Position numbers and translations under genes: made by a program. The notes below the pieces were generated by a model. It was not told where the DNA came from. It searched no databases and saw only the letters and a list, made by a program, of their open reading frames with translations. Shown piece after piece: positions 17,153 through 50,282 of a stretch of DNA of 64,000 bases. Origin of the DNA: Chitinophagales bacterium (GTDB taxonomy: Bacteria; Bacteroidota; Bacteroidia; Chitinophagales; Saprospiraceae); assembly GCA_013299105.1 (NCBI GenBank), contig JAAFJY010000005.1:62001-126000 (forward strand), written 5' to 3'. Each line of letters opens with the position of its first letter. The first letter of the stretch is position 1.

Positions 17153-17278
17153 GGAACGTAAAGAAATAAGGTGGACGGATTGGGGTTTAGTGAAAAAAGA
17201 TAAGCAACTGACTGGAAGGATTTGTGTTCTTTTTTTACTAAATCTTAAAAGTAAATATGTCCACCTTATTTTAGCTCA
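17153..17278 (+). repeat. MITE-like hairpin element, family 1, copy A
   Basis: About 126 bp, with left end GGAACGTAAAGAAATAAGG and right end CCTTATTTTAGCTCA. The arms pair along most of their length (GGTGGAC with GTCCACC, TTTAGTgAAAAAAGA with TCTTTTTTTaCTAAA), leaving a short loop near CTGGAAGGA. The element ends 60 bp before the start codon of the Nudix regulator gene. Other copies: 36689, 37612 and 50155 (inverted). Confidence 0.85.
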
Positions 17279-17338
17279 AATACTAAGTGATAAAAGCCCC
17301 CTCAATTCACCCTAATTTTTACTTCAATCAAACTCAAG

Positions 17339-18100
17339 ATGCACACCATCAACAATCACTTACCTGGAGAAGGCAAAGTGCAGGGATACCACGCCCAGGA
17401 AATCAGCTTGCTCAACTCCGTCGATTGCGTCATTTTTGGTTTTGACGGTAAGGACTTGAAAGTATTACTGGTACGCTTTCCCTACGAACCCTATCGTGGG
17501 CATTGGTCGCTGATTGGGGGTTTTGTCAAACCTGATACCAGTATTGATGAAGCTGCCCGCCAAACTGTCGCAAATATGACAGGCCTGGAAGATGTGTACA
17601 TGGAGCAAATCTACACCTTTGGCGAGGTAGGTCGGGTACCTAGCGAAAGGGTGATCACCACTTGTTATTATGCTTTGATACGAGTAGAGCCTACCTTGCC
17701 CAGACTATCTAAGCAATTTGAAGCGACTTGGATATCGGTGGCCAAACTTCCCAATATGGTTTACGATCACGCTGACATGTTGGATCGTGCCTTGCGCCGC
17801 CTACGTCGACGGGTACGCTACCAGCCCATCGGATTTGAACTCCTGCCTCCCAAATTTACCATGACAGAACTGCGCAGTCTTTACAATTCTATTTTAGATA
17901 AAGACTTAGAGAAACGGAATTTTAGCAAAAAACTTTTGATTATGGGTTTACTCACCAAGCTGGATGAGCAAAATAAAGTTACATCACGCAGAGGAGCCTT
18001 TTATTTCCAATTCAACGAAGGAAAGTACCGTGAATTAATCGCAGATGGCTACCTTTTAGAGTTTGTTGCAGCCAAAAAGCCAAATAAAAAAGCAAATTGA
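17339..18100 (+). CDS. Nudix-domain transcriptional regulator (NrtR/AraR-like)
   Basis: A 253-residue protein with an N-terminal Nudix fold (about 24-150) and a C-terminal winged helix (about 165-240, with FTMTELRSLYNSIL and FSKKLLIMGLL). The Nudix box region GGFVKPDTSIDEAARQTVAN has lost the catalytic glutamates (the positions normally Glu are Thr, Thr, Asn and Met), so it should bind but not hydrolyse its ligand. Regulators of this architecture control sugar catabolism in Bacteroidota, the arabinose regulator AraR being the known example. Its position just before tandem palindromes and susC strongly suggests it controls this locus. The effector sugar or phospho-sugar is unknown. Confidence 0.9.
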   Translation: MHTINNHLPGEGKVQGYHAQEISLLNSVDCVIFGFDGKDLKVLLVRFPYEPYRGHWSLIGGFVKPDTSIDEAARQTVANMTGLEDVYMEQIYTFGEVGRVPSERVITTCYYALIRVEPTLPRLSKQFEATWISVAKLPNMVYDHADMLDRALRRLRRRVRYQPIGFELLPPKFTMTELRSLYNSILDKDLEKRNFSKKLLIMGLLTKLDEQNKVTSRRGAFYFQFNEGKYRELIADGYLLEFVAAKKPNKKAN

Positions 18101-18152
18101 GCATCTTTTTGTCAATAAAAAGGCAAGAACTGCCATTTTTTTGACATTTTAA

Positions 18153-18199
18153 TTTGAGTGTAATTTGTACACTCAAATAATAAGTGTTATTTTTACACT
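18153..18199. promoter_or_regulatory. tandem palindromic operators upstream of susC
   Basis: The first site is a perfect inverted repeat, TTTGAGTGTA-ATTTG-TACACTCAAA (18153-18177). The second, AGTGT-TATTTTT-ACACT (18183-18199), keeps the same AGTGT-N7-ACACT geometry. Their centres are 26 bp apart, and they lie between the Nudix regulator gene and susC, about 140 bp before the susC ATG. Confidence 0.65.
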
Positions 18200-18336
18200 C
18201 ATTATTTTCCTTACACCATCACCTTGTATTTGCAGGCAAAAAACATCAGTTGAGTTGGGTAAACATTTCCTTGTAATCAAACAGCCCAAAGCATAAGCTA
18301 AACCCTAATTATTTCGCTCACTTTAACCTACATTTC

Positions 18337-21300
18337 ATGAAAAGAGTTCTGTTCATGCTGGCCTTTTGGTTCAGCACTATCTATGCCTGGTCGCAATCCT
18401 CAACCGTCGTGGGGACTGTCACAAATGAAGCTGACGGACAAAGCCTTGCTGGCGTTACAATTATGGTAAAAGGGACCGCGACTGGCGTGGTCACTGATGT
18501 CGATGGTGAATTTTCGATCAATGCTGCTCCGGGAAGTACCCTGGTTTTCAGTTTCATTGGTTTCGAAACATTTGAGCAAATCATTGGCAATGAAACCCGT
18601 TTGCAAATAGGATTGAAAACGGATTCCAAATTGCTCAATGAAGTCGTGGTCGTGGGTTACGGTTCGCAAATCAAACGCGATGTGACCGGAGCCATTGCTA
18701 CAGTGAAAGGTTCCAGTATTGCCCAGTTGCCAGTACCCTCTTTTGACGCAGCGCTGCAAGGCCGAGCGGCTGGTTTGCAAGTTTCGCAGCAAGGTGGAGC
18801 CCCCGGTAGCCCGGTGCGGGTGCAAATCCGCGGCACAGGCTCTGTTTCCTCGGGTACAGAACCCTTGTACATCATTGATGGGATGCCCATTTTTCAGGAC
18901 ATAGGTGGCATTGCATCCGGTCGTACCAACAACAACCTCAACCCATTGGCCAACATCAATTCCAATGACATTGAGTCAATTGAAGTGTTGAAAGATGCAG
19001 CTGCAACGGCAATTTACGGTTCTCGGGGTGCTAACGGGGTCATTTTGGTGACCACCCGCACAGGCAAAAAAGGGCAAGGCCGCACTACCCTTGACTTCAA
19101 TCGAGGCACCTCAGAGGCGATCAACTTGATTGATTACGTGAATGGTTCGGACTGGTTGCGCATGGTAGACGAAAGCCGCCGCAACAGTGTCAATTATGGA
19201 ATCACCACGGGGCAAGAGCAATTTAACCCAGCGGTTTTGTCGAACAACACCTTGCCAACGCCCACAGGAATTTCTGGCCCTCAATTTGGCCCCTTGGCCA
19301 CTTGGACCCGTGCCCTTGCCGAGCAGACCAATACCAACTGGCGCGATCAGTTGCTACAACAGGGTACAACGCAGGAATACAATGTTTCTACCAGCAATGG
19401 ATTTGACAAGGGAGGCTTTTTCATTTCTGGCCAATACCGCGATGAAGAAGGGATTCTGAAAACCCACCGTTTGCAGCGCTACGCAGCTAGAGCCAACATT
19501 GATTTTTCGCCTAGCGACCGCTTGAGAGCAGGGGCGAAATTTAATTTCTCATACCTGCGTTTTACTCAACCTCAAATAGGCATCGGCAATAATGGCGGCG
19601 GCATTGGCCGTCAAAACTTTGGTGCAACGGGAGGATGGGCCCAAGCCAACCTGGGTTCCCTACCGATCATGCCCATCACCAATGCCGATGGCTCGTATTT
19701 TGACCCGCTGCGCGGTCGCAATGTGGTTTCGGGCATCGATCAAAACAATTTTGCCAGCTATACTGATCAAAACCGGACCATTGGTACAGCTTTTATTGAG
19801 TACAGCATCTTCAAAGGTTTGAATCTCCATGCAGAAGCCTCGGCTGACTTTTTGAACTCCAACTCCATTTATTGGGCCAGTGACGTGATCCGTTACAACC
19901 GGGTGGGCCAAGAAGAAGGTCGTTTCATCAACAACCGCAACGTCAATGCCTACCTGACTTACAACCTTTTAGGGCAGGAAAAACATGCTTTGACAGCTGT
20001 GGTGGGTTCTGAAATGCAAAAAACCACGACCCGCCGCCAGGATTATGCCTTTGAAGGGCTACAAGGCGCCCAACAAGAAATTGGTGAAATATCCAACGGC
20101 CAAACCCAGTTCATCACCGCCGTATCAGGCATTTTTCCTGATCGCTTCTTCTTGTCATATTTTGGCCGCCTCAACTATAAGTTCAACAACCGCTACTTGC
20201 TGGGCTTAAGTTTTCGCCGCGATGGCTCTACTGTTTTCGGCCCTGAAAACCGCTATGGTAACTTCCCGGCAGTTTCGGCAGGTTGGATCCTCTCGGATGA
20301 AGCTTTTATGCAAAAGGGTTTGTTCAGCAAATTTAACCTGTTGAAAATCCGTGCCAGCTACGGCCAAACAGGCAACGCCAATATCCCAAGTTTCGCTTTT
20401 GTGAATACTTACGCCAACTGGCCAGTGTACGGGCAGTCACCAGCCTTGGGTTTCAACGTTTTGGCCAACCCTAACATCGGTTGGGAGAAAAACAACCAAG
20501 TGGATGCCAGCTTGGAATTTGGCTTATTTAACAACCGTATTTCGGGTTCGGTAGGTTACTACAATCGTTTGTCACAGGACATGTTGCTAAACGTACCCGT
20601 AGCGCCCAACGTGGGCATCGGTACAGGAGCTTCTCAGGTGATCACCAACATCGGCGACCTGCGCAACCAAGGGATCGAATTGCAATTGAGCACCATGAAT
20701 GTCACCAAAGGTGCTTTCTCTTGGTCAACTGATTTCAACTTTACTACGGTACAAAATGAAGTAACCCGCTTGACGCCGCAATTCACTACCCTTCCAGGCG
20801 GCTCTTTGCCCGTAGCGAACGGCATCCAGTCGGGTGGAGCTACCATTACCCAGGTTGGTGGCCAATTGGGGACCTATTACCTAGCTGAATACGCTGGTCT
20901 GGATGCCCAGGGTTATGAAACGATTTACGAAATCGATCAAAATATCCTGCGTACTACTGGTAGAACTGTCAAAACTGGCAACATCATCCGCGCAACCCAG
21001 GCCAATATCAACGCCAACCGCGTTGTGCACGAGAGTGAAACGGGATTGCCGACCTTCTTTGGCGGTATGACCAATACCTTCCGCTTCAAGGGTTTTGAAT
21101 TGAGCGCTTTGCTTACTTTCCAAGGGGGCAACTACATTTATGATGGGCATGAGGAAGCCACTTCGTATATCCGTACGGGAAACAACGTGATTCGAGCCAG
21201 TGTTTTGAACAATTACTGGACCGAAAGCAATACCAACGCCACCAACCCACGCCTGACTTGGAACCTGCGCGACAACAACAACGATGCACAAGGTCGCCCA

Positions 21301-21603
21301 GCAGCTCAAACCCTCGGCACTCGTACCACCCGCTTTTTGTACAAAGGCGATTTCATTCGCTTAAAAACAGTACAAGTAGCCTACAATATTCCACAAGGTG
21401 TGAGCAAAAAAATTGGCTTACAAGGCTTACGCGTATATGCCAATGCCCAGAACCTCTGGACCTCCACCCAGTTCCCTGGCATGGATCCGGAGTTGGTGAT
21501 TTTGGGCGGCACCCAGGACCGAAACCTCAACCAAGGTGTAATCGGCAACTTGCTGCTGCCTCAAGTGGTAGCAATCAATGCCGGAGTGAGCGTATCATTT
21601 TGA
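18337..21603 (+). CDS. SusC/RagA-type TonB-linked outer-membrane transporter
   Basis: A 1088-residue protein imports oligosaccharides across the outer membrane with its SusD partner. Domains in order: signal peptide (to about 20), carboxypeptidase-like regulatory domain (about 25-100, VVGTVTNEADGQSLAGVTI), TonB-box/plug starting NEVVVVGYGSQIKRDVTGA with the SusC-typical YIIDGMPI and IESIEVLKDAAATAIYGSRG, then a 22-strand barrel ending in VSVSF. Length is normal for the family. The gene follows two palindromic operators and precedes susD by 65 bp. Specificity is not readable; the linked GH29 and GH42-like genes suggest a fucosylated or galactosylated glycan. Confidence 0.97.
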   Translation: MKRVLFMLAFWFSTIYAWSQSSTVVGTVTNEADGQSLAGVTIMVKGTATGVVTDVDGEFSINAAPGSTLVFSFIGFETFEQIIGNETRLQIGLKTDSKLLNEVVVVGYGSQIKRDVTGAIATVKGSSIAQLPVPSFDAALQGRAAGLQVSQQGGAPGSPVRVQIRGTGSVSSGTEPLYIIDGMPIFQDIGGIASGRTNNNLNPLANINSNDIESIEVLKDAAATAIYGSRGANGVILVTTRTGKKGQGRTTLDFNRGTSEAINLIDYVNGSDWLRMVDESRRNSVNYGITTGQEQFNPAVLSNNTLPTPTGISGPQFGPLATWTRALAEQTNTNWRDQLLQQGTTQEYNVSTSNGFDKGGFFISGQYRDEEGILKTHRLQRYAARANIDFSPSDRLRAGAKFNFSYLRFTQPQIGIGNNGGGIGRQNFGATGGWAQANLGSLPIMPITNADGSYFDPLRGRNVVSGIDQNNFASYTDQNRTIGTAFIEYSIFKGLNLHAEASADFLNSNSIYWASDVIRYNRVGQEEGRFINNRNVNAYLTYNLLGQEKHALTAVVGSEMQKTTTRRQDYAFEGLQGAQQEIGEISNGQTQFITAVSGIFPDRFFLSYFGRLNYKFNNRYLLGLSFRRDGSTVFGPENRYGNFPAVSAGWILSDEAFMQKGLFSKFNLLKIRASYGQTGNANIPSFAFVNTYANWPVYGQSPALGFNVLANPNIGWEKNNQVDASLEFGLFNNRISGSVGYYNRLSQDMLLNVPVAPNVGIGTGASQVITNIGDLRNQGIELQLSTMNVTKGAFSWSTDFNFTTVQNEVTRLTPQFTTLPGGSLPVANGIQSGGATITQVGGQLGTYYLAEYAGLDAQGYETIYEIDQNILRTTGRTVKTGNIIRATQANINANRVVHESETGLPTFFGGMTNTFRFKGFELSALLTFQGGNYIYDGHEEATSYIRTGNNVIRASVLNNYWTESNTNATNPRLTWNLRDNNNDAQGRPAAQTLGTRTTRFLYKGDFIRLKTVQVAYNIPQGVSKKIGLQGLRVYANAQNLWTSTQFPGMDPELVILGGTQDRNLNQGVIGNLLLPQVVAINAGVSVSF

Positions 21604-21668
21604 GCCAGTCTAAGCGGGATGTACACCCACTCTGGCTTTTCCTTTTTTGACCAAAAAGTATCTTCCAC

Positions 21669-23261
21669 ATGAAAAATATCTTTTCCTATACTTCTCTCAT
21701 TGCCCTGCTGTTTTTATTCAGCGCTTGCGATGAAGATTTTTTTGATGATGCCCGCCAACAATCCAATGTCGCCAGTGATTCCTGGGGTAGCACCCTGGAC
21801 CTGGAGCGCCTGGTAGCGGGGGCTTATTATGGCGTTAGTGGTTATGCTGGTTTCCGGGGCTTGCACGGCCTACAAGGAGTACACGAAGCCTTTATGTCGG
21901 ACATCGGATTACTACACGTTAGTGGTGCAACCGGCGATTGGGAACAGGACCTATACAACCGTCGCAATGCCCGCAACGACATCTTTTTGTATGGCAGTAT
22001 GTGGTCGGGAGGCTATCAAGCCGCAGCGCTTTGCAACGAAGTCGTTGGTTGGGTAGAAAAAAATGGGGCTTTCAAAGACCAGTATGGACCTACTTGGACC
22101 GATCGCCTGGTGGGCGAAAGTTTGTTCTTGCGCTCTTGGGTATATTTCCACTTGGTGCGCATGCACGCCCCAGCTTACGGAGCCAACAACAGTGCGCCTT
22201 CGATCATCCTGAACCTTCAACCATCCAAAGAACCATTTGCCAATCCAGGCCGGGCTACGGTGCAGCAGGTGTATGATCAGTTGCTCAAAGACTTGGAGCA
22301 AGCCATTCGGTTGTTGCCAGAAACCTACAATGCACAGCGTGATCCACTGGAGTACCAGGATCGCGCCAACCGCGATGCGGCTCGTTTTTTGCTGGCTCAA
22401 GTGCATTTTCAAATGAAAAGCTATGCCAAAGCCAAGGAACAGATCGACCTGCTAATTGCCCCCAACCGTTATCCAATGACCGATGACCCCATTGAAGCAT
22501 GGAACAAAACAGGGCTGGCTCAAAAAGGCAAAGAAGTAGTCTGGCAATATGTACAATACAGCACCTCTCAACAACAATGGAAAGGCTCTCCAGCTGGCGC
22601 TTATTTTGGCTTCACCGCCAGAGGCAACTCTTCCCAGATCAACGGAGGCCGCATCATGTCAGCTAGTGATGCTTTCTTAAAAACAGTAGGTTGGGATGCA
22701 GACAAGCTAAGAGTCACCAATGTACCCGCCAACCGCCCTCCAGGAACCCTGGGCACCCAAACCAATTTTACCATCGATAATCCCGACAAGCGCGTAGCAC
22801 AATTGTGGAGAGCCATTCCGGCTGGTTTTGACCCTCGCACCGAGTTTACTGGCTATACCCGCACTTATGTATGGTGCAACAAGTGGAACCGCATTGCCGG
22901 ACCAACCAACAATAACCTTTTCAGCTTGCCGCTGATGCGCATTGCTGAAATGTACCTTACCCGTGCAATCATCCGCTTCAACGAAGGCGACCGCAAAGGT
23001 GCTGCTGATGACTTAAATGTAGTTCGTCGTCGAGCTGGACTGACGGCAATAGCTGAAGCCGACATCACCGCCAATGAAATTCACAATGAGCGCATGCGTG
23101 AATTGGCATTTGAGAACGACCGCTTGTACTACCTCCAGGCACTGAGTTTACCAATTCCGGCAGGGGATCGTGCAGACCAAGCTACCATTCCCTGGAACAG
23201 CGATAAATTTGCCATGCCGCTGCCCAACACTGAAGTGGATGTGAACCCTGGAGCCCGTTGA
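21669..23261 (+). CDS. SusD/RagB-type nutrient-binding lipoprotein
   Basis: A 530-residue surface lipoprotein (lipobox FSAC, Cys20) that caps the SusC barrel and binds the glycan. It has the tetratricopeptide-like helical framework of the family: FLRSWVYFHLVRMHAPAYG, RFLLAQVHFQMKSYAKAKEQ and, near the C-terminus, LPLMRIAEMYLTRAIIRFNEGD followed by NEIHNERMRELAFENDRLYYL. It forms an operon with the preceding susC and ends in a strong terminator. A half copy of the family-3 element lies directly after the stop codon. Confidence 0.96.
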   Translation: MKNIFSYTSLIALLFLFSACDEDFFDDARQQSNVASDSWGSTLDLERLVAGAYYGVSGYAGFRGLHGLQGVHEAFMSDIGLLHVSGATGDWEQDLYNRRNARNDIFLYGSMWSGGYQAAALCNEVVGWVEKNGAFKDQYGPTWTDRLVGESLFLRSWVYFHLVRMHAPAYGANNSAPSIILNLQPSKEPFANPGRATVQQVYDQLLKDLEQAIRLLPETYNAQRDPLEYQDRANRDAARFLLAQVHFQMKSYAKAKEQIDLLIAPNRYPMTDDPIEAWNKTGLAQKGKEVVWQYVQYSTSQQQWKGSPAGAYFGFTARGNSSQINGGRIMSASDAFLKTVGWDADKLRVTNVPANRPPGTLGTQTNFTIDNPDKRVAQLWRAIPAGFDPRTEFTGYTRTYVWCNKWNRIAGPTNNNLFSLPLMRIAEMYLTRAIIRFNEGDRKGAADDLNVVRRRAGLTAIAEADITANEIHNERMRELAFENDRLYYLQALSLPIPAGDRADQATIPWNSDKFAMPLPNTEVDVNPGAR

Positions 23262-23270
23262 TTTCAGAGG

Positions 23271-23325
23271 TTTACGAAGAGTAGTCGAAATTGGGCCGTT
23301 TTACGGCAAACAAAAAGCATTAAAC
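23271..23325 (+). repeat. half copy of hairpin element family 3
   Basis: About 55 bp similar at roughly four of five positions to 61399-61449: both contain ACGAAGnGTAGnCGAAATT, GGCCGTTTTAnGGCAAAC and end in TTAAAC. The other half of the element, with its left inverted repeat, is missing here. Confidence 0.55.
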
Positions 23326-23354
23326 TACTCTACACCAACTGTTCTTATTCTAAA

Positions 23355-23399
23355 AGGAGTGCCCCGCCGAAAGTTTCGGTCGGGGCACTCCTTCTTTTT
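23355..23399 (+). terminator. rho-independent terminator after susD
   Basis: A long GC-rich hairpin, GGAGTGCCCCGCCGAAAG pairing with CGGTCGGGGCACTCC, followed by TTCTTTTT. It also faces the convergent LytTR gene, whose stop codon is 26 bp further right. Confidence 0.85.
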
Positions 23400-23424
23400 G
23401 AAGAGGCATGTCAAGCATCCCCCC

Positions 23425-24185: not shown

Positions 24186-24348
24186 GTAAAAGTTTACGTC
24201 GTTCCCATTTCGGTCAAAAAAGGCCGTTCTTCCGTGATCCTTCGCCTCTTTTCTCAGCCGATGCTTGGGCATCGACTTCAAAAAGCAGACTAGGCTGAAG
24301 AAAAATCGTCATCTTTTTTGTCTCGAAACCACTGACCTAAACTTTTAC
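24186..24348 (-). repeat. MITE-like hairpin element, family 2, copy A
   Basis: 163 bp flanked by GTAAAAGTTTA and TAAACTTTTAC. Inside, CAAAAAAGG pairs with ATCTTTTTTG, CTCAGCC with GGCTGAAG, and the apex is GATGC-TTGG-GCATC. It lies in the gap of the LytS/LytTR operon. Other copies: 55875 and 63419 (inverted). Confidence 0.85.
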
Positions 24349-34465: not shown

Positions 34466-36622
34466 TTAATTTTTCAGAAAACTTCCAACACAACGCCGAT
34501 TTTCTTGTACCTGCTCGATCAAATACTGGCCCTTTGGCAGTTTTTGCAAGCTGATTTCCTGGCGCTTGGCACTGGCATTCAGGTTCAGTTCCAGTACTTT
34601 TCGGCCTTGTAGGTCACTGATTCGCACTTGACCCACTTGATTTTTTGTACCGTTGGTGTTTTCCAAAACCACATAATCGGCACCTGGATTGGGGTACAAA
34701 GTGAAGCAATCTTTTTTGAGGGGCAAATCGCGGCTTGCGGTAAGCGGGTTGATGCTGAATTGGATCAGGCCTTGACCCTCAGTACCCAGGGTAATGCGAT
34801 TACCACTTGCAAAAAGTAGGTCACTGACTTGGGCAGGATTAATGCCCGCCAAATCGGCCCAGGGATAGAGCTTGAACTGTTTGCCATCGGCCCCAATTTC
34901 CAGTAAGCCTTCATTAACGCTGGTCCACACTTCACTGTTGAGGGGATTTGCCTCGAAGAATAGATTACTGAAATTAAACCGTGTACCAGGGTAATTGGGC
35001 AAAGCTATTTTGGTCCAGGTTTTTGTATCTGTTGAAAGTATTATCTCACCTGCAATGGTTTTTATCCAAATTTTGCCATCTGCCGCTACGGTATACCCCA
35101 AAAGGGAAGTACCTGGCTGCCCCTGGCCAGGGTATAGGTTCTCCCCCACCCCATTGCGTACTCTGCCCACAAAGGCAGTGCTGGCCATAAAATAAACATC
35201 ACCACTGCGGCGGTCCACCTGTACTTGATTGACCGAACCATTGAACTGGGCCACTTGGCCGTTCACCGACAGAACCTGGTCGTTGGCACTCAGTTGCCAG
35301 AGCCCTTCAAATCCCGTACCTATCCAAATTTTACCATCGTTGCCAACCGCAAGCGAGCGAATTTCTTTGCGATCTAGGCGATTGTTGAGATTGGAAGGGA
35401 TCAATACACCGTTATTCAAGTAAAAAAGGCCATTGAATGTACCGACTACAATTTTGTTTTCAGGGGTCTCAGCCATCGCCTGAATATAGGGCTGTCGGGC
35501 GTTGGTGTTGGGGGCCAGGTTGAGCAATTGCCACTGCTGGCCATTTTGCTGGTACAAACCTAAAGGCGTATACATATATAAGGTACCCCCAGCAGTCCGA
35601 AACAACCCCAATATCCCATCCCCCGGTGGAAAATTACTCGATTGATAAGAAACGGGTTGGGTAAATGAACCGATGATGCCTTGTACCCCATTTCCCAGGG
35701 TAGCGACCATTACAATATCATCTTGCACCCGAAAACGAAATGCGCTACCCAAGGGGTTATTAGAAATTTGAGGGTTGATGTAAAAACCTGTTTCGCTGCT
35801 CAATGCGGTGTACCCCGCAGTACTTGCAGCAAAAACCTCTCCTCGTGGACCTCTTGCCAGATCGTACACCACAGCTTCTTTGGCTAGCCCACGGGCAGTC
35901 CAGTCAATTTCTTGGGGCGTAATGGTATCCCTACGAACAATATTGAGTTTGTACCCGAAAGTACTGCCACTAAAAAAAGAGCTCCCGACGACCAAATCAT
36001 TACCGAACTGAAAAATATTTTGGGGAAAATGCGTCAAAGGGTCCTGTGGAATCGGTATTTGGCGCACATTGCCATCTTTGAGCCGATATACTGTGATCCC
36101 CAAAATGGCTAGGATTAAATCATTGCTTGGGTCGTAGCGCATGGCATTGACCTCTTGATCTGGAAGGTTGGCCACTTTACTAAGCGTGCCGTTTTGCAAG
36201 CCAAAAACTCCAGCGGTAGTGCCTAGCCAGATGCGCCCTTTTTTATCAGCTACAATTCTTTTGAATTGCAAGCCCTGCGGAAGATTACCTGGCGTCAGGT
36301 TTTGCAGGGTATTGTTGGGGTTCAGCCTGAAAATTTGCCTTGAATAAATAAAATAAAGGCTGTCGCGCCCATACACTTCCATCTGCTCTGGCAGCGCTTG
36401 CGGCAAACCTATCGCTTTGAGGTCGATGCGTTTTTTGATCGCCCCTGGATTGCCAATAGGGAAAACCTCCAAGGCGGTTGAGCTGAAGGCCCATGCGCTG
36501 TCTTTGCGAATCACCAAGTGCAAAACTTGGTTTTGGGCTTGAAAACGCTGGATGTTTTGTTGGGCATAAACGGTGGAGCACAGGAGGATCAATCCCCAAA
36601 AAAAGAGTATGCCTGGTTTCAT
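34466..36622 (-). CDS. secreted beta-propeller protein with T9SS sorting domain
   Basis: A 718-residue exported protein with a signal peptide (cleavage near VYAQ). Residues about 40-630 are propeller repeats such as GRIWLGTTAGVFGLQNG, NKIVVGTFNGLFYLNNG and GKIWIGTGFEGLWQLS, similar to two-component regulator propellers. The last 80 residues are a type A T9SS C-terminal domain, starting FTLYPNPGADYVVLE and including VRISDLQGRKVLEL and LPKGQYLIE. It should therefore be secreted or cell-surface attached through type IX secretion, whose core genes gldLMN are at the right end of the window. Probably a glycan- or protein-binding surface protein; no catalytic site was seen. It converges on the sulfatase gene with a 9-bp gap. 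Confidence 0.9.
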   Translation of the reverse strand: MKPGILFFWGLILLCSTVYAQQNIQRFQAQNQVLHLVIRKDSAWAFSSTALEVFPIGNPGAIKKRIDLKAIGLPQALPEQMEVYGRDSLYFIYSRQIFRLNPNNTLQNLTPGNLPQGLQFKRIVADKKGRIWLGTTAGVFGLQNGTLSKVANLPDQEVNAMRYDPSNDLILAILGITVYRLKDGNVRQIPIPQDPLTHFPQNIFQFGNDLVVGSSFFSGSTFGYKLNIVRRDTITPQEIDWTARGLAKEAVVYDLARGPRGEVFAASTAGYTALSSETGFYINPQISNNPLGSAFRFRVQDDIVMVATLGNGVQGIIGSFTQPVSYQSSNFPPGDGILGLFRTAGGTLYMYTPLGLYQQNGQQWQLLNLAPNTNARQPYIQAMAETPENKIVVGTFNGLFYLNNGVLIPSNLNNRLDRKEIRSLAVGNDGKIWIGTGFEGLWQLSANDQVLSVNGQVAQFNGSVNQVQVDRRSGDVYFMASTAFVGRVRNGVGENLYPGQGQPGTSLLGYTVAADGKIWIKTIAGEIILSTDTKTWTKIALPNYPGTRFNFSNLFFEANPLNSEVWTSVNEGLLEIGADGKQFKLYPWADLAGINPAQVSDLLFASGNRITLGTEGQGLIQFSINPLTASRDLPLKKDCFTLYPNPGADYVVLENTNGTKNQVGQVRISDLQGRKVLELNLNASAKRQEISLQKLPKGQYLIEQVQENRRCVGSFLKN

Positions 36623-37067
36623 GAATACGGGTTTGGGATGAATGGATACCAGGTAATAACGCCAATTCGAGCCTTGAATTTTGCTAAGAGAGCGTAAAAA
36701 AATAAGGCAAACGAGTTTGGGTTTAGTGAAAAAAGATAAGCAACTGGATGAAAGGAAGTTGTGTTCTTTTTTTGCTAAACCTCAAAAGCAAAGTTGTTTA
36801 CCTTATTTTAGCTCAGGTATTAAATTTGGATGCTTGACCAAGATTTGACATTTATTCAATTCAACAACATTTAACACCCTATTGCGCGTATTTTGTTAAA
36901 TAAATATTTCCAACAATTGATTCTTGACAAAAAAAGCTTTTCACCACTTGGCGATTCCCCGAAGAATGATTACTTTAGTGCATGCCAAATCTGTAAATGG
37001 CTTGGCTAGCGGTTGCCGAAAAGCTCAAAGAGTAGGCACAGACTCTATTTTTCCTAAAACTTGTACC
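36623..37067. other. intergenic region with hairpin element
   Basis: Divergent region between the T9SS propeller gene and a small membrane protein gene. It contains family-1 element copy B. An open frame extends the downstream gene leftward to 36924, but that segment lacks coding character. Confidence 0.6.
36689..36815 (+). repeat. MITE-like hairpin element, family 1, copy B
   Basis: 127 bp with ends AGAGCGTAAAAAAATAAGG and CCTTATTTTAGCTCA. The inner arm reads GCAAACGAGTTTGGGTTTAG and pairs imperfectly with CTAAACCTCAAAAGCAAAG. The outer GGTGGAC of the other copies is GGCAAAC here, matched by GTTTACC on the other arm, so the change is largely compensated. Confidence 0.85.
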
Positions 37068-37550
37068 ATGAGATTCAATTACAAATTCTTGTCCTTACTT
37101 GTGATGGCCCTTTTGATTTCGTTCAGCGGATTTTCTGCGGGCATGATGAAACGTGAAATGGCTCCCTTGACCACCGCCGAGTTCGTAAAAATGACCCCGG
37201 CCGAACTAGAAACCCGCACGGGTGAAAAAATGGGCTTCACCAAGCGCATGGCACTGCGCATGGTGCAAAACAAGCTGGAGAAAAAAATGAAGAAAAATCC
37301 TGACCTGGCAAGTGCCCCAGTCTCAGGTGGTAATGGTTTGGCTTTGGCATCTATGCTTTTGGGCATCGGGGGGCTTTTCATCTCCTTCTTTGCAGGTTTG
37401 GGCCTTTTGCTTGGCGCAGCGGGATTTGTGCTGGGGATCATCGCTTTGGGCAAAGGACAAAACAAAATCATGTCCATTCTGGGCATTGTTTTTGGGGCCA
37501 TTTCCTTCGTCTTGGGCTTGCTGGTATTGGTAGCGGTATCCATTATTTGA
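37068..37550 (+). CDS. small membrane protein with C-terminal DUF4190-like hydrophobic hairpin
   Basis: A 160-residue protein. An N-terminal signal/transmembrane segment (FLSLLVMALLISFSGFSAG) is followed by a charged segment that includes TPAELETRTGEKMGFTKRMA and a Lys-rich helix. Two strongly hydrophobic Gly-rich segments follow (LALASMLLGIGGLFISFFAG and IMSILGIVFGAISFVLGLLV). The pattern occurs in many uncharacterised Bacteroidota proteins. I chose ATG 37068 because the 48 residues encoded before it have no coding character. Function unknown. Confidence 0.8.
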   Translation: MRFNYKFLSLLVMALLISFSGFSAGMMKREMAPLTTAEFVKMTPAELETRTGEKMGFTKRMALRMVQNKLEKKMKKNPDLASAPVSGGNGLALASMLLGIGGLFISFFAGLGLLLGAAGFVLGIIALGKGQNKIMSILGIVFGAISFVLGLLVLVAVSII

Positions 37551-37584: not shown

Positions 37585-37764
37585 TTAAAGTGCTCATTTT
37601 TGGCTCATTAGGGAGCGTAAATAAATAAGGTGGACAGATTTGGGTTTAGTTAAAAAAGAAAAACAACTGGATGAAAGGAAGTTGTGTTCTTTTTTTGCTA
37701 AACCTCAAAAGCAAATGTGTCCATCTTATTTTAGCTCAAATCTTAGCCGAAATGAGCACTTTTA
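37585..37764. repeat. outer inverted repeat enclosing family-1 copy C
   Basis: AAAGTGCTCATTT-TT-GGCT (37587-37605) is complementary to AGCC-G-AAATGAGCACTTT (37745-37763): 13 plus 4 paired bases around a small internal loop. The family-1 copy lies entirely inside. None of the other three copies has such an outer arm. Confidence 0.75.
37612..37738 (+). repeat. MITE-like hairpin element, family 1, copy C
   Basis: 127 bp with ends GGAGCGTAAATAAATAAGG and TCTTATTTTAGCTCA. AAACAACT pairs with AGTTGTGTT near the apex, around the loop GGATGAAAGGA. It ends 62 bp before the start codon of the sugar permease gene. Confidence 0.87.
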
Positions 37765-37800
37765 CTTTTTCACCTGCATCAACTACAAACAAACGCAAGC

Positions 37801-42053: not shown

Positions 42054-42182
42054 TGATAAAGTAACGTGAATTCTGGGAAAAGGAGGTTGCTTTTCAAAGA
42101 ATGATTCGAGAAAACAGGCAAGGAATGATCAATTTAAAATTTCAATAATCTCAAACCGTGCAGACGAGAACCTAAAACACGA

Positions 42183-42246
42183 CAAATTTCCCCAGCGAGC
42201 CTCTAAATCGTATGTCGTATGTCGTATGTCATATGTCGTATGTCAA
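42183..42246 (+). repeat. AGCGAGCC box plus TCGTATG heptamer array
   Basis: CCCAGCGAGCCTCTAAATCG is followed by TCGTATG, TCGTATG, TCGTATG, TCATATG and TCGTATG in perfect 7-bp register (42208-42242). This is the cleanest array of the family. A TGCAGACGA motif near 42159 matches one in the 39.1-kb copy. Confidence 0.7.
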
Positions 42247-42284
42247 AACAACATGCCGAACAAAACAGAACTCACATTAAAGCC

Positions 42285-43604: not shown

Positions 43605-43683
43605 GAAAATTGGTGTTTTTGAGTGATCTGAAAGATAAACTTACAAAAAATCGCAGATTGATCATCGAAGCTACACAAAAACA

Positions 43684-43728: not shown

Positions 43729-43750
43729 GACTTTGTTTAAACGTTGATCC

Positions 43751-43963: not shown

Positions 43964-43991
43964 AACTAGCAGTTTTAAAATTGTTATGGTG

Positions 43992-43999
43992 CAAAAGTA
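43992..43999 (-). promoter_or_regulatory. Bacteroidota -7 element before the DUF2892 gene
   Basis: The minus strand reads TACTTTTG, matching TAnnTTTG, 28 bp before the start codon. This would give the small membrane protein its own promoter, independent of the Crp/Fnr gene. Confidence 0.45.
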
Positions 44000-44037
44000 G
44001 GCTTGCCTAAATTGCTGCGCAGTGACCGCAGTCACCG

Positions 44038-44658
44038 TTATTCCATAATTTTTATCCCTTTTTTCTCTTGTTGAATTTTCCCCTCTATTTCCAGCTTTTT
44101 CAACATGCGAGTCACGACCTCCCGGGCAGTGCCCAGTTCGCTGGCAATTTGGCCATGACTCAGTTTGATCGTGGCGTTTTTGGTCATGTCAGCTTTCTTT
44201 TTCAGGTGCTCGTAAATTCTTTTGTCCATTTTATCCAGCAACAAATGCCCGATGGTGTCCAATAATTCAGCGTAGCGCAAGTTGTATTGGTTGTAAATCA
44301 GCTCGTTAAAAGTTGGATAAATCCTCAGTAGGTTTGTGAGGTGCTGTACCGGAATCAGTAGCAATTGAGCATCCTCTTCGATGGTGGCAAAAACCTTGCT
44401 GGGTGTATGTTTCAGCGCAGCATAAAAGGACATGATGCAGCTCTGGGCAGGTTCAATATAGTATAGCAACAGTTCTTTTTCTTCAAACCTGGAATAGACC
44501 TTGACCAGGCCGCTCAAAACAATAGGCAAAACATGGACGTACTGCTTTTCCCTTAAAATTTCTGTTCCCTTTAAATAGCTTTTGACTGCTGAGCAGTTGA
44601 TGATTTCTTCTAACAATTGTGGCTGTAAAAAGGCAAGTTTTTTTCTGACCAACTCCAT
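44038..44658 (-). CDS. Crp/Fnr-family transcriptional regulator
   Basis: A 206-residue regulator with an N-terminal cyclic-nucleotide-binding-like fold (about 15-120: KGTEILREKQYVHVLPIVLSG, LLLYYIEPAQSCIMSF) and a C-terminal helix-turn-helix (about 140-205: IKLSHGQIASELGTAREVVTRM). The cysteines are not in the Fnr iron-sulfur arrangement, and the cAMP-binding RxS motif is absent, so the ligand is unknown. It precedes the DUF2892 gene. A 13-bp perfect palindrome lies 60 bp before its start codon and may be its own operator. Confidence 0.9.
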   Translation of the reverse strand: MELVRKKLAFLQPQLLEEIINCSAVKSYLKGTEILREKQYVHVLPIVLSGLVKVYSRFEEKELLLYYIEPAQSCIMSFYAALKHTPSKVFATIEEDAQLLLIPVQHLTNLLRIYPTFNELIYNQYNLRYAELLDTIGHLLLDKMDKRIYEHLKKKADMTKNATIKLSHGQIASELGTAREVVTRMLKKLEIEGKIQQEKKGIKIME

Positions 44659-44717
44659 TGATGACGTTTGAATTCAACTAAAAATAGCTGACAAGATAGA
44701 AATTGGCAAATAAGTAG

Positions 44718-44751
44718 AAAGGGTTCTGACACATTTGCGTCAGAACCCTTT
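44718..44751. promoter_or_regulatory. 13-bp perfect inverted repeat upstream of the Crp/Fnr gene
   Basis: AAAGGGTTCTGAC-ACATTTGC-GTCAGAACCCTTT. It resembles a terminator stem but has no T-run on either side and no gene ends here, so an operator or 5'-UTR structure is more likely. Confidence 0.5.
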
Positions 44752-45016
44752 CAAATTTCATGAGATTATAGGCCCCAATAAAAAAAAGTTGTAGCTTGTC
44801 GAGCCTTGGGGTAGCCCTGTTGTGTGGGATTAACAATTTGTCAATGGTCGGTCGTCGTGTTGGTCGTCTTCAAAGAACCAGGCTCCCTTGCCTGTATTCG
44901 TTGTTGGAATTATAATTTGCTAGCGTGAGCCGTTTTGTGAGGTTCAGAAAAGGCACTTTTGATTGTGTCCCTGTTCATCTCCTTTCACAGTACAAATATG
45001 CAATGGTATTTTGGGC

Positions 45017-45047
45017 TTGATAAGTACAAATTCTATTATTACTTTTG
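45017..45047 (+). promoter_or_regulatory. Bacteroidota promoter before the 486-residue gene
   Basis: TTG (45017-45019), a 20-bp spacer and TACTTTTG (45040-45047): the best complete -33/-7 pair I found in the window. The leader to the ATG is about 80 bp. Confidence 0.5.
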
Positions 45048-45134
45048 TGATGCCGAAGACGTTTTTTAGTTCAAAAAACTGAAAATCAAATCTTTATCAT
45101 TTTCAAAAACCCTCAAAACTATATTTTATAAAAA

Positions 45135-46595
45135 ATGCAGGACAGTAAATTGGTCAAAAATATTTCTGATTTGCCCCAAAAAGACCGCGAACGCTTCCGC
45201 CAATTCGTGATTTCGCCCTTTTTTAACCAGCATAAGCCCACCCTGGAGTTGCTGGACCACTTGCTGAAAACCATCGACAAAGCCAAACCAGATTTCAATC
45301 GGGAGTCGATTTTTAAAAAAATCTACCCCAAGGAGAATGCGTACGACGAGCAGAAGCTCCACAACGTAATGTCGAACCTCAAAAAACTATACCACCGTTT
45401 TTTGGCCATCGACCAGTTTGAAAAAGAGCCCCTACTGGAAGAACTTTACACCCTGGCCTCGGCATCCGACCGCAACCAGTTTGAGTTGATGATCAACCGG
45501 GCCAAGTTGCTGGACCGCCAGTTTGATGAGTTGCCAGCCCGCGAAGACAATTACAACTTCCTGCAATACCACAAACACCGCTTGCTGGGTTACTACGAAG
45601 CCAACTATGTAGACCGCACCAATACCGATCCCCTGCAAAAAATGTTGGACTATCTCGACAAATTTTACCTGATCGAAAAACTGCGCAATTGCTGCCACCT
45701 AACCGCCAACATGATGCTGATGAATACCCAGTATGATTTTGGCTTGCTGGAAAGTGTATTGCCTGCGGTGGCCGAGCGCTCGCAAGAAGAACCCAGCAAC
45801 AAAGAAGATTGGCCCATCGTGATGTACCACCGGGTATTGCTGACCATGCGCTTTGAAGACGACTCCCAGCATTACCAAAACCTGACGGCCCTTTTTGGCG
45901 AAGCCTTTGCCCACCTCAACCCCCTCCAACAAAAGGACTTGTTCAGTTTTGCTTGCAATTATTGCATCCGCCGCAGCAATTTGGGCGACGTTACTTACAA
46001 AAAAGAGCTGTTTGAACTGTACAAAAAGGGTTTGAACCTTGGCCTGATGCTCGAAAATGGGATCATTTCCGAATTTACTTACAAAAACATTGCAACCCTA
46101 GGCTGCAATTTGCGCGAATTTGAATGGACCGAGCAATTTTTGCAGCAATACCGCAGCAAACTCTTGCCCAACAAACGCGACAATGCTTACCACCTCAACC
46201 TGGCTACGGTATATTACAACAAGCGACAATACCGGGAGGTGCTTTCCAGCCTCTTGCGGGTACAGTTCACAGATGTAGTCTATCACCTCAACTCGAACTT
46301 TTTGCTCCTCCGCTCTTATTACGCCCTAAAAGATACCGAAGCCCTGCTTTCCTTGATTGAGACCTTCCGCATTTATGTGATGCGCAGCCGCAAAATGACC
46401 GCCAGCCAGCGCCGGGCCTATACCAACTTCTTGCGTTTTGCCAAAAAATTGGTTGAGCTGAGGCACAATGGCTTCACGATGTCTAGAGAAGTACTCAACA
46501 AAAAACTACAAGAGCTGCACACCAAAGTCCAGGAATCAGACAATGTGGTAAACCGGGAATGGTTGTTGGAAGAGAGCAAGGTGGAAGAGAATTGA
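45135..46595 (+). CDS. uncharacterised helical-repeat protein
   Basis: A 486-residue cytoplasmic protein without signal peptide or membrane segment, predominantly helical and rich in Leu, Tyr and charged residues. The N-terminal 100 residues (LPQKDRERFRQFVISPFFNQ, MSNLKKLYHRFLAID) look like a compact helical domain. The rest resembles degenerate tetratricopeptide repeats, for example AYHLNLATVYYNKRQYREVLSSL and LLLRSYYALKDTEALLSLI. I recognise no named family or active site. TilS follows 77 bp downstream on the same strand, so the two may be cotranscribed. A protein-interaction role is an inference. Confidence 0.8.
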   Translation: MQDSKLVKNISDLPQKDRERFRQFVISPFFNQHKPTLELLDHLLKTIDKAKPDFNRESIFKKIYPKENAYDEQKLHNVMSNLKKLYHRFLAIDQFEKEPLLEELYTLASASDRNQFELMINRAKLLDRQFDELPAREDNYNFLQYHKHRLLGYYEANYVDRTNTDPLQKMLDYLDKFYLIEKLRNCCHLTANMMLMNTQYDFGLLESVLPAVAERSQEEPSNKEDWPIVMYHRVLLTMRFEDDSQHYQNLTALFGEAFAHLNPLQQKDLFSFACNYCIRRSNLGDVTYKKELFELYKKGLNLGLMLENGIISEFTYKNIATLGCNLREFEWTEQFLQQYRSKLLPNKRDNAYHLNLATVYYNKRQYREVLSSLLRVQFTDVVYHLNSNFLLLRSYYALKDTEALLSLIETFRIYVMRSRKMTASQRRAYTNFLRFAKKLVELRHNGFTMSREVLNKKLQELHTKVQESDNVVNREWLLEESKVEEN

Positions 46596-46672
46596 AAAAT
46601 CGGTGCTTTAGACTTTACAGTACTTTTTCCGTTCAAAAGCACCTCAAACTGGAGTTTAAACTCGCCTTATCA

Positions 46673-48001
46673 ATGATCGAACTCTTTTTCCATAACCTGC
46701 GCCGTTTGCTGGGCGAAGACCCGCAAAACCAGCGGTTTTTGCTGGCCGTGAGCGGCGGACAAGACTCGGTGATCATGGCCGACTTGTTTTTTGTCAGTGG
46801 CATTCCTTTTGGCATGGCCCACTGCAATTACCAGTTGCGGGGCGAGGATTCGGACTTGGACTTGGCATTTGTAAAAAAATTGGCGGCGCACTACGAGGTA
46901 CCTTTTTACCAAAATACTTTTGACACCAAAAAACTGGCGGCGCAAAGAAAACAATCCATCCAGGTGGTCGCCCGGCAATTGCGCTACGACTGGCTGGAGG
47001 AGATTCGGGAAAAAGAGGGCTACCATTGTATATGTACCGCCCACCACCTCAACGACACGGTGGAAACAATCTTGTACAACCTGATCAAAGGTACGGGTTT
47101 GAAGGGCTTGACGGGGATTCCTGAAAAAAATGGCCATATCTTGCGGCCATTGTTGTTTGCGACCAAAGAAGACTTGGTGAAGTACTACCGCGAAGCCGAA
47201 CTCAGCCACCGCGAAGACTACTCAAACAGCGAAACCAGCTATGCCCGCAACCAGATCCGCCACAAGGTCATCCCGCCCCTGCGCGAGATCAACCCTTCGC
47301 TGGAGCATACGATGGGCCGCAACCTGGGCTATTGGCGCGAAATTCGCCAATGGTTTGAGGTCGAAGCCGAGAAACTACGCGGCGAATGGATGGAAGAAAG
47401 CCCCGGACGCATCAAAATCGACCTGGAACACTTATGCGCCCAGCCAGCCAGCAGCAGTCTTTTACATTTTTGGCTGCAAGCCTATGGTTTTTTCCCAGAG
47501 CAACTGGAAAACATCCTCCAGGCTTACCAAAACGGGGCCAAAAGCCGCATTTTCCTCAGTGCTACTCACCGGGCACTATTGTACCAACAACATTTGATCA
47601 TTGAGGCGCAATTTACCGGGCGTGCAGAATTTTTCGTATTGGAACGCGAAGCTGGGAATTTGGAAAACCCTAAACTCAGTTGGACCCACGAGCCTCGGCC
47701 AGCGGCTTTCAGTACGGTGCCCCATTTGGCTTTTTTCAGCGCCAAAGACCTGGTTTTCCCTTTGAAACTGCGCCACTGGCAGGCTGGCGACCTGTTTTAT
47801 CCCTTGGGCATGGGCGGCAAGGCCAAAAAGTTGCAAGACTTTTTCAGCGATGAAAAAATCGACCGCTTCGCCCGCGAACGCGCCTGGATCCTTTGCAATG
47901 GCGATGGGCAATTGATGTGGGTTCTGGGAAAACGGATTGACGAGCGATTCAAGGTTCGGGATGGGGAGGACTTGGTGTTGCGGGTGGAGCTTGGGGCTTG
48001 A
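46673..48001 (+). CDS. tilS: tRNA(Ile)-lysidine synthetase
   Basis: A 442-residue enzyme that attaches lysine to C34 of the tRNA(Ile) CAU anticodon using ATP, which switches its decoding to AUA. The PP-loop motif is SGGQDSVIMADLF (about 28-40), followed by GMAHCNYQLRGEDSDLD, ARQLRYDWLEEI and CTAHHLNDTVETILYNLIKGTG; the substrate-binding SYARNQIRHKVIPPL is present. The C-terminal TilS domain is seen in LRHWQAGDLFYPLGMGGKAK and DFFSDEKIDRFARERAWIL. I use the ATG at 46673; a longer frame from 46559 adds 38 unrelated residues that overlap the upstream gene. Confidence 0.96.
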   Translation: MIELFFHNLRRLLGEDPQNQRFLLAVSGGQDSVIMADLFFVSGIPFGMAHCNYQLRGEDSDLDLAFVKKLAAHYEVPFYQNTFDTKKLAAQRKQSIQVVARQLRYDWLEEIREKEGYHCICTAHHLNDTVETILYNLIKGTGLKGLTGIPEKNGHILRPLLFATKEDLVKYYREAELSHREDYSNSETSYARNQIRHKVIPPLREINPSLEHTMGRNLGYWREIRQWFEVEAEKLRGEWMEESPGRIKIDLEHLCAQPASSSLLHFWLQAYGFFPEQLENILQAYQNGAKSRIFLSATHRALLYQQHLIIEAQFTGRAEFFVLEREAGNLENPKLSWTHEPRPAAFSTVPHLAFFSAKDLVFPLKLRHWQAGDLFYPLGMGGKAKKLQDFFSDEKIDRFARERAWILCNGDGQLMWVLGKRIDERFKVRDGEDLVLRVELGA

Positions 48002-48052
48002 GGCTTTGTGCTGCTTTTTTTGGACTAGAAAAATATAGATTTCTTGGGCCAA

Positions 48053-49585
48053 TCAGCCCCCAATCTCCTCCCAAATGATCTTTTCTACTTCTTTTTTCTT
48101 TTTGCTAAAATTGATACCAATGGCGTGGCAAGGTTTTCCTTTGTTCAAAAAAGGAGCCAGATAGCCTTTGTCATGAATTTGCGCCAGGGCCTCTTCGGCG
48201 CTTTTGTCAAGCTTGAATTCCAGGCAGAAAACACCTTCCTCTACTTGGATGATTGCGTCCGCTCGCCCGTCTTTGGTCTGCACTTCACTGTTGATATAAA
48301 CGCCCATTAGACTAAAGAGCAAATGCACAATCGCGTGGTAAAACTGCTCATTTTCTTTTTGCCAAAGCGGATTGGGGATGTGCTCAAAGGCTTTGTTGAT
48401 ATTCTCTTTTAGCGTCTGGGCGCTTTTGTTCTTCAGGGCTTTGATCAAATTAGACATAATGACCTTAGCCGGATAAATCTGTGATCCAATATACGTATCC
48501 GCCAACTTGTTCAGGTATGCCCCCTTCACTTCGTGATTTGGAAACGACAAAGTGAAATTGTCCATCACATCATCGTAATCCTTGATGGTCAAATATCCTG
48601 TTTGAAAAAGCAAAGGAACCAGGTTGATGTTTTCAAAATCAAAGGATTGTAGGCTAAGGCTGTCAGCAGTGATGTCTTCAAAGCGATAAAAGTGCTCCTT
48701 TTTACTGATCTCCATCAAAAAAGTGGGCGTGCCAGTGGTGTACCAGTAATTGAAAAAATCGCCATTGCTTGAAAAGAAGTTGAGCATCGAAAAAGGATTG
48801 TACAACGTATCACCCTTGATGTGCCAGCGGTAACCATTGTACCAGTGTCGGATTTTTTCGCGATCAAAAGTTTCCAGTTCTTGAGGAAAATAGGCTTCCA
48901 GTTCAACTTGACTGATCCCACATATCTCGTTGAAATCTTGCCTCATACTCAGGTCGTACAAGTTGTTCAAATCAGAAAAAATGCTGACTTGGCTGAACTT
49001 GCTGACACCAGTAATAAAAACCAATTTAAGGTAAGGATCTGCATCCTTCAAAATGCTGTAAAAGCTCTTGAGGATGCCTCGGTTTTCGCGGGCCTTGGGG
49101 AGTTGGTCTTGGTCGAGGTAGTCGATGATCGGCTTGTCATATTCATCGATTAAAATGACGACTTGCTTTTGAAAACGCTGATAAAGTGCTCGAATGAGTT
49201 CGTCGAATCTCAAGGAGGTAGAGGGCGTAGTTAAAACAATGCCATATTCAGCAGCATTGTTTTCCATTTGTAGCGCAATGGCTTTTTCCAGCCCTATTTC
49301 CCGATAACCACTGTTGGCAAAACTGATTTTGATCACCGGATATTCCTCAAAAGCCCACTTATCTGCAATGTACAAACCCTCAAAGAGCGCTTTTTCGCCT
49401 TTGAAAAGATAATGTAAGACACTAACAAACAAAGATTTGCCAAAACGACGCGGGCGAGAAAGAAAATAATACCCACCTTTTTCAAGCAGTTGATGCACAT
49501 ACCGCGTTTTGTCCACATAGACAAAATCGTTAGTGATGATTTTTTTAAAATCTTGATGCCCAACCGGGTATTTTTGAATATCCAT
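48053..49585 (-). CDS. AAA-ATPase-like protein with C-terminal PD-(D/E)XK nuclease domain
   Basis: A 510-residue protein of the AAA-ATPase_like/DUF1703 type. It begins with the family signature KYPVGHQDFKKIITNDFVYV, then a Walker A-like SRPRRFGKS (43-51) and Walker B VVILIDEYDKP. The C-terminal 100 residues form a PD-(D/E)XK domain with GRADAIIQV (Asp) and FCLEFKLD (Glu-x-Lys). Such genes occur in many copies in Bacteroidota and are suspected to be selfish or defence-related; no function is proven. It is transcribed alone, from a -7 element only four bases before its ATG. Codon use looks like its neighbours. Confidence 0.92.
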   Translation of the reverse strand: MDIQKYPVGHQDFKKIITNDFVYVDKTRYVHQLLEKGGYYFLSRPRRFGKSLFVSVLHYLFKGEKALFEGLYIADKWAFEEYPVIKISFANSGYREIGLEKAIALQMENNAAEYGIVLTTPSTSLRFDELIRALYQRFQKQVVILIDEYDKPIIDYLDQDQLPKARENRGILKSFYSILKDADPYLKLVFITGVSKFSQVSIFSDLNNLYDLSMRQDFNEICGISQVELEAYFPQELETFDREKIRHWYNGYRWHIKGDTLYNPFSMLNFFSSNGDFFNYWYTTGTPTFLMEISKKEHFYRFEDITADSLSLQSFDFENINLVPLLFQTGYLTIKDYDDVMDNFTLSFPNHEVKGAYLNKLADTYIGSQIYPAKVIMSNLIKALKNKSAQTLKENINKAFEHIPNPLWQKENEQFYHAIVHLLFSLMGVYINSEVQTKDGRADAIIQVEEGVFCLEFKLDKSAEEALAQIHDKGYLAPFLNKGKPCHAIGINFSKKKKEVEKIIWEEIGG

Positions 49586-49589
49586 AGTT

Positions 49590-49597
49590 CAAAGATA
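49590..49597 (-). promoter_or_regulatory. -7 element placed for a leaderless transcript
   Basis: The minus strand reads TATCTTTG, then AACT and the ATG of the AAA-ATPase/nuclease gene. The spacing is the same as for the histidine kinase gene at 2890 (TAACTTTG, AACC, ATG). Confidence 0.45.
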
Positions 49598-49638
49598 GCG
49601 AAAATTAGGCTTCGCAGGTCTGGGCTGGCGAAAATCCC

Positions 49639-50139
49639 TCACTCCACCTCCCCTTTGATGCGCAGCACCACCGGATTTTTGGAAAAATTGGTAAAAACCG
49701 AGATCTGTTTGCTGAAAACACCCGCTACTTCGGCATTAAAAACCGTTTTGATTTCCGTGCTTTTGCCTGGCAGAATGGGCTTCTTGGAGTATTCGGGGAT
49801 AGTACAACCGCAGGAAGTTTGAATATCTGCAATGACCAAAGGTGAGCGGGTCTTGTTTTTGACCTTGAACTTGGCCGTAGCGGGCTTGCCCTGTCGGATT
49901 TTGCCAAAATCGTGCTCGGTTTCGTTCCAAATCAGGGCACTGGGCTTGGGGGCTTTGGCCTTGTCTTTTTTATCGGCTTTTTTGTCGGCTTTGACCGCTT
50001 TAGCCTGTTGTTGCTTTGCCGGGTCTTTTTTGCTTTGCTCTTTTTTGGGTGCTTTGGGGGTATCTGGGACCTTGTTCTGTGCGGTACAAATCCCCAAAGC
50101 AGTGGTGATGAGCAGCAGTGTCAGTAAAATATGTTTCAT
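49639..50139 (-). CDS. secreted DUF1573 protein
   Basis: A 166-residue exported protein: signal peptide (cleavage near CTAQ), a Lys/Ala-rich linker (about 25-65) and one DUF1573 immunoglobulin-like domain. The domain has the family pattern NETEHDFGKIRQGKPATAKF, then KNKTRSPLVIADIQTSCGCT with the hallmark CGC, then PGKSTEIKTVFNA. The family is abundant in Bacteroidota and lacks an agreed function. Family-1 copy D lies 15 bp upstream of its start codon, so its promoter must be inside or beyond that element. Confidence 0.92.
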   Translation of the reverse strand: MKHILLTLLLITTALGICTAQNKVPDTPKAPKKEQSKKDPAKQQQAKAVKADKKADKKDKAKAPKPSALIWNETEHDFGKIRQGKPATAKFKVKNKTRSPLVIADIQTSCGCTIPEYSKKPILPGKSTEIKTVFNAEVAGVFSKQISVFTNFSKNPVVLRIKGEVE

Positions 50140-50154
50140 GGTACCATTGGTGTT

Positions 50155-50282
50155 TGAGCTAAAATAAGGTGGACATATTTGCCTTTAAGGTTTAGCAAAA
50201 AAAGAACACAACTTCCTTTCATCCAGTTGCTTTTCTTTTTTCACTAAACCCAAATCCGTCCACCTTATTTTTTTACGCTCCC
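50155..50282 (-). repeat. MITE-like hairpin element, family 1, copy D (inverted)
   Basis: 128 bp in the opposite orientation to copies A-C: it starts TGAGCTAAAATAAGGTGGAC and ends CCACCTTATTTTTTTACGCTCC. The sequence around the apex, ACTTCCTTTCATCCAGTTG, is the exact complement of that in copy C except at the flanks. Confidence 0.87.

Follow-up and report, generated by a model that had tools for sequence, protein, structure and literature searches.

The genome studied here carries a family of roughly 200 copies of a 133-bp element, very probably a non-autonomous MITE that consists of one imperfect palindrome with unequal unpaired tips and contains no gene; each of the four congeners examined carries a similar family. 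The original prediction rested on four hairpin copies, each upstream of a start codon, in the window (the whole 64,000-nucleotide stretch of DNA that was analysed), and proposed either a MITE mobilised in trans or a domesticated 5'-UTR module. All four copies (A to D) are present, and each folds into one long hairpin; folding energies for the element strand range from -43 to -54 kcal/mol, with z scores between -6.8 and -9.7, and 0 of 200 shuffles did as well. The repeat itself had been recognised correctly, but its boundaries had not. The true unit, set by a 3-bp duplication, is 133 bp long and ends in AGCTCAAATAC; it begins 1 base outside the predicted start (at the same base in copy D) and extends about 5 bases past the predicted 3' end. 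With these ends the copies are placed as follows.

17152..17283, plus strand: candidate MITE copy A, flanked by TAA (17149-17151) and TAA (17284-17286)
36688..36820, plus strand: candidate MITE copy B, flanks TAA/TAA, stem of the AA/TT subfamily
37611..37742, plus strand: candidate MITE copy C, flanks TTA/TTA if one tip base is deleted, otherwise TTA/TAG
50150..50282, minus strand: candidate MITE copy D, flanks CAA/CAA; the DUF1573 gene, on the minus strand, starts at 50139, 10 bp from the right end of the copy

All four copies do lie upstream of start codons, at corrected distances of about 55 (A), 65 (B), 58 (C) and 10 bp (D) in place of 60, 66, 62 and 15, and Pfam searches bear out the predicted neighbours (NUDIX with NrtR_WHD, Reg_prop with Por_Secre_tail, MFS_1 and DUF1573). 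Copy B turns its left end toward the start of the minus-strand propeller gene (34466-36622) and is thus no plus-strand leader of that gene. The left TAA of copy A doubles as the stop codon of the open reading frame at 16048-17151; this copy has GGAACG instead of GGAGCG at its end and differs in the loop (GACTGGAAGGA). On either side of copy C stand the two arms of an inverted repeat, AAAGTGCTCATTTTTGGCT and AGCCGAAATGAGCACTTT (approximately 37588-37607 and 37746-37765); the copy apparently inserted into the loop of a pre-existing palindrome. Closely 3' of copy B, at 37006-37038, there is a match to the Rfam DUF805b RNA (RF02914, 38.2 bits), ahead of an open reading frame (37068-37550) that has no Pfam match.

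To count copies, we searched the host genome (7.67 Mb in 77 contigs) with a 26-base core allowing up to 3 mismatches, which gave 197 matches (89 forward, 108 reverse; reversed control 0), far from the few further copies that would have spoken against a repeat family. BLASTn with copy D pointed to 416 candidate places; 40 of these were scored, and every one matched over at least 126 of 128 bases with 93-100% identity. A profile built from the four window copies yielded 199 non-overlapping matches, 165 of them full length, in 2.64 Mb (34% of the genome), fetched in stretches largely chosen around near-consensus copies. We anchored 138 of these 165 full copies at both ends; the 27 that failed the end patterns were dropped, copy A among them on account of its GGAACG end. 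The element runs from GGGAGCGTAAAAAAATAAGG to CTTATTTTAGCTCAAATAC (GGGAGCG...AATAC) between 3-bp direct repeats, with the end patterns GGG(A)GCG..TAAAA..TAAG on the left and CTTATTTT.GC.C.A.TAC on the right. It is short, non-coding and repeated, with terminal inverted repeats, as expected of a MITE; the palindrome spans GAGC to GCTC and leaves the tips GG (left) and AAATAC (right) unpaired, and the outer 15 bases of the two ends form no clean inverted repeat. As originally noted, the element encodes no transposase, having no coding capacity at all. Across the 138 copies, median identity to the consensus is 0.932, mean pairwise divergence is 0.111 and the median distance to the nearest neighbour is 0.038, and 18 copies carry an internal insertion variant.

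The evidence for transposition comes from the flanks. We compared every left-flank position with every right-flank position and found exactly three matching pairs and no others; a 4-bp YTAR target, considered earlier, was dropped on this result. The flanking triplets were identical in 82 of the 138 anchored copies and matched at two positions in 37, at one in 12 and at none in 7, while 2000 trials with shuffled right triplets averaged 23.1 perfect matches and never exceeded 36. The target consensus is TWA: the left triplet is TNA in 82 of 138 copies and TAA or TTA in 77. Against the MITE account stand the 56 copies without a perfect triplet, 19 of which match at one position or none. We also joined the flanks and searched the fetched DNA for unoccupied paralogous sites. 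Three of the six pairs inspected were clean empty sites with a single TAA each (two paralogues on contig C3 of one filled site, and one on C41 of a filled site on C56); the other three had CAA for TAA (C34), AAT for AAA (C4), or TAA with poor alignment beyond it (C3). Target-site duplication and empty sites are thus both present. A 27-bp remnant retains both tips with TAA on each side, and some copies are nested in other repeats or broken up by them.

The two strands fold unequally well. In 136 of 138 copies the plus strand gives the more stable fold (-46.8 versus -33.9 on average), all near-fixed wobbles lie on it, and 591 cells hold G.U against 58 with A.C, an excess due in part to our taking the pairs from the plus-strand consensus fold, which favours G.U over A.C at the consensus level. 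In a covariation test restricted to 46 of the 138 copies, paired cells make up 97.4%, and the covariation score lies above all 500 shuffles and all slid controls; seven pairs had changes on both sides, a count reached by 63 of 500 shuffles, and the other four measures were reached by 0, 0, 5 and 0. The compensatory change that had been pointed out in copy B is real and recurrent: stem columns 22,23/111,112 read GG/CC in 91 of 138 copies and AA/TT in 18, alongside GG/TT in 3, GA/TT in 4, AG/TT in 2 and AA/CC in 0, and a single A.C at these columns in two copies. The stem therefore does hold compensatory changes, yet these are mostly differences between subfamilies. At Watson-Crick consensus pairs, variants found in at least 5 copies comprise 102 G.U, 101 compensated and 24 A.C cells (G>A is common at unpaired positions, at 128), whereas private changes show no such preference, with G.U to A.C at 11:11 for singletons and 21:20 for changes in at most 2 copies; for those in at most 4 copies the ratio is 52:29. 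Common changes mostly keep pairing and private ones do not, so pairing seems to matter during multiplication; as shared variant cells are not independent and represent few events, the contrast is suggestive of pairing kept among multiplying source copies rather than in each settled copy. The pairing-preserving bias of the shared variants, the lack of AA/CC copies and the strand of the near-fixed wobbles would suit a requirement of multiplication for the plus-strand hairpin itself, in RNA or single-stranded DNA form. We consider this improbable; were it so, this would be an element that makes 3-bp duplications and is mobilised via a folded strand.

Beyond this genome, BLASTn with copy D found no close copies in the four congeners and, in 39 other genomes, one match of 81% over 46 bp (G030, related at the order level). 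The strict end pattern occurred 175 times here and once each in 3 of 119 other genomes of the family, which is chance level given a total of 5 in the reversed controls. Neither copy D nor its patterns matched viral contigs, plasmids or phages, and the sister element described below matched no plasmids, in searches that may leave out near records. The covariance model gave weak matches in all four congeners (G001 to G004), the best being L183 in G004 (E value 2.2e-9), with the left end GGAGCGGTAAAAAAATAAGTGTTCATTTT; of the six such matches that were read, L183 alone seems a real relative, L184-L188 being other palindromes. The inner part of the L183 end occurs 129, 51, 199 and 284 times in G001 to G004, 5 times in the present genome, and 0 or 1 times in controls. 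In G002 we found 20 opposed-end pairs with spacings of 34-221 bp (81-83 bp in 16 of the pairs), as well as 11 single sites. The sister copies read were L183, four short ones from G001 and G002 and one longer form, with none from G003. The short copies measure 118-122 bp, and the flanking triplets of five of them match at three positions in 1, two in 3 and one in 1, so that a duplication is not established for this family. The longer form (L193, G002:C1:2872640-2872950) has a strong inner hairpin, and two more end pairs are equally wide (212-221 bp). By architecture and ends, these four other Haliscomenobacter genomes thus appear to carry their own similar, related-looking hairpin family, and we infer that it may share common descent with the MITE.

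What the element does where it lands bears on the proposal of a domesticated 5'-UTR RNA module, in which the hairpin would be transcribed in leaders and its structure selected gene by gene. The four window copies suit this idea, all being upstream of start codons, as does the better fold of the plus strand. Gene models came from a crude caller, and 133 of the 138 anchored copies had neighbours on both sides; 132 of these 133 are intergenic. Of the 132, 37 are no more than 30 bp from a start, where gap bases predict about 14, but 31 are equally close to a stop, where about 13 are predicted. Nor do the copies near starts have the consistent placement and orientation of a leader, with 22 facing the start by the right end and 15 by the left (p = 0.32); near stops the split is 10 right to 21 left (p = 0.07). 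By gap class, 73 copies are in tandem, 40 in divergent and 19 in convergent gaps, where the gap bases predict about 83, 29 and 20, and in tandem gaps 47 copies run with the genes and 26 against them, a weak codirectional bias (p = 0.019, one of several tests). Eight of the 132 copies abut a stop codon exactly, the adjoining triplet being the stop codon, and the opposite triplet is identical in 3 of these 8. Placement relative to start codons thus comes close to random in the sense that starts and stops are treated alike and in both orientations, and it looks like that of an element inserting into non-coding DNA where genes begin and end rather than that of a leader module. With private substitutions that ignore pairing (11 G.U to 11 A.C among singletons, where a structure kept in individual copies would show otherwise) and no Rfam family at gathering score on the window copies, we regard the 5'-UTR module as very unlikely, and we found nothing showing that the host has put the element to use.

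Two further accounts take the same repeats as something other than a MITE. The first, a transcription terminator that works in both directions and was spread by duplication of genes or by recombination, with no transposable element involved, would suit the small hairpin CAACT...AGTTG with A- and T-tracts flanking it on both strands. The target duplications and empty sites speak against it, the duplications already refuting a terminator as the origin; convergent gaps show no excess (19 of 132 against about 20 expected), a scan of the consensus places no terminator within copy B or copy C, and we give this account almost no credence. The second, a REP-like palindrome mobilised by a Y1 (RAYT) transposase, would share with our element its high copy number and intergenic placement, and the sister family strengthens the resemblance: its other strand begins with GTAG beside the hairpin (GTAGTGGGGC), like GTAG-tagged REPs, while the family described here reads GTATTTGAGC at the corresponding end. 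Target duplication is not known from Y1 enzymes. REPs are put at 20-40 bp in one account (PMC3733652), whereas our element has 133 bp, a 3-bp target duplication and empty sites, and a RAYT origin accordingly seems a slim prospect.

The original proposal of a MITE mobilised in trans is backed by the many copies, the 3-bp target duplications, the paralogous sites that are empty and the absence of any gene in the element, although no mobiliser turned up in the 34% of the genome examined. In those 2.64 Mb there was no open reading frame between MITE ends and no insertion sequence (IS) with the same ends, and in congener G002 no inner-end pair lay 0.4-5 kb apart, except for one that used an already paired site. 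Across the whole genome, transposase domains occur as PF01609 in 8 places, PF13340 in 2 and PF13359 in 1. The single intact DUF4096-type gene is an IS5-family transposase (NF033580); searching the contigs of other genomes with it turned up a single relative (48%), which belongs to a Thiotrichaceae MAG. The inverted ends of this resident IS5, GAAGCCGTTTTAAAATCC, differ from each other by one mismatch, are each flanked by TTA and do not match those of the MITE.

Three ISs adjoining MITE sequence all proved to be inserted into MITE copies. At one end of contig C1 a transposase is joined to the left end of a MITE; it was considered as a partner and rejected: a copy on C37 has the same left part of the IS without the MITE, and the IS at C1 landed in a MITE copy. 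On C62, where an IS end lies beside a MITE right end, the 123-bp repeat (G000:C62:1-123) stops before MITE sequence; it is common to seven contig ends and at C62 sits inside a MITE copy, so a multi-copy IS evidently broke the assembly there. An IS5 fragment on C43 (the second DUF4096 match) is inserted in a MITE copy at TAA. A DDE_Tnp_4 gene on C26, another candidate, showed no MITE-like ends.

We hold the IS5/IS1031 group to be the likeliest source of the transposase, a call we put at about even. IS1031-group elements are described as preferring TNA and making 3-bp repeats (PMC12016507), and the 3-bp duplication at TNA found here agrees with that description, so the mechanism fits. The outermost end base is G in both, and the resident IS5 shares the TTA/TTA flanks. 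The differences are that the MITE has no transposase, that its outer ends form no clean inverted repeat and that the ends of the resident IS5 are unlike its own. Copies insert with a 3-bp duplication, preferably at TWA and almost always between genes. A DDE transposase supplied in trans would cut both ends, and these would be joined to 3-bp staggered cuts. Inserted copies would then decay without visible selection on pairing, which would be kept in the source copies that multiply.

Elements of the MITE type are well known; the present family is a new one. In the Haliscomenobacter and Saprospiraceae literature, a limited search of titles found no report of such a miniature inverted element. By description, it resembles the MITEs of Porphyromonas gingivalis, also in Bacteroidota, which are presented as non-autonomous inverted-repeat elements (PMC4596501). 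Eukaryotic PIF/Harbinger-derived MITEs are likewise non-coding and of high copy number, and are described with TWA 3-bp duplications (PMC4482050); the present element is bacterial, and the likeness, again one of description, implies no common mobiliser. Copies near starts or exactly on stop codons, which the duplication can restore, are natural insertions for studying what gene boundaries tolerate, and setting shared against private mutations is an easy means of telling selection that acts on a hairpin while the element amplifies from selection that acts once it has inserted.

Several other repeats were noticed. A second hairpin repeat, roughly 163 bp long (GTAAAAGTTTA...TAAACTTTTAC), lies at 24186-24348, 55875-56036 and 63419-63580 of the window and has 32 non-overlapping matches in the 2.64 Mb, 19 of them near full length. 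A 66-bp CGTATGT-rich repeat occurs in three copies that are 82-85% identical (9343-9408, 42182-42247 and 56772-56837), and ATCCGT-rich dispersed repeats, both direct and inverted, are found at 7417-7500, 8002-8080 and 54261-54346; ATCCGT-like stretches break MITE copies elsewhere, for example at L038. Finally, a small repeat with ends like GGGGTGGCAAAAAAATAAGTTA and GTTATTTTTTCAGTGGCCC beside TAA (L168:13605-13800 and L038:3120-3310) is perhaps a further MITE family with similar ends.
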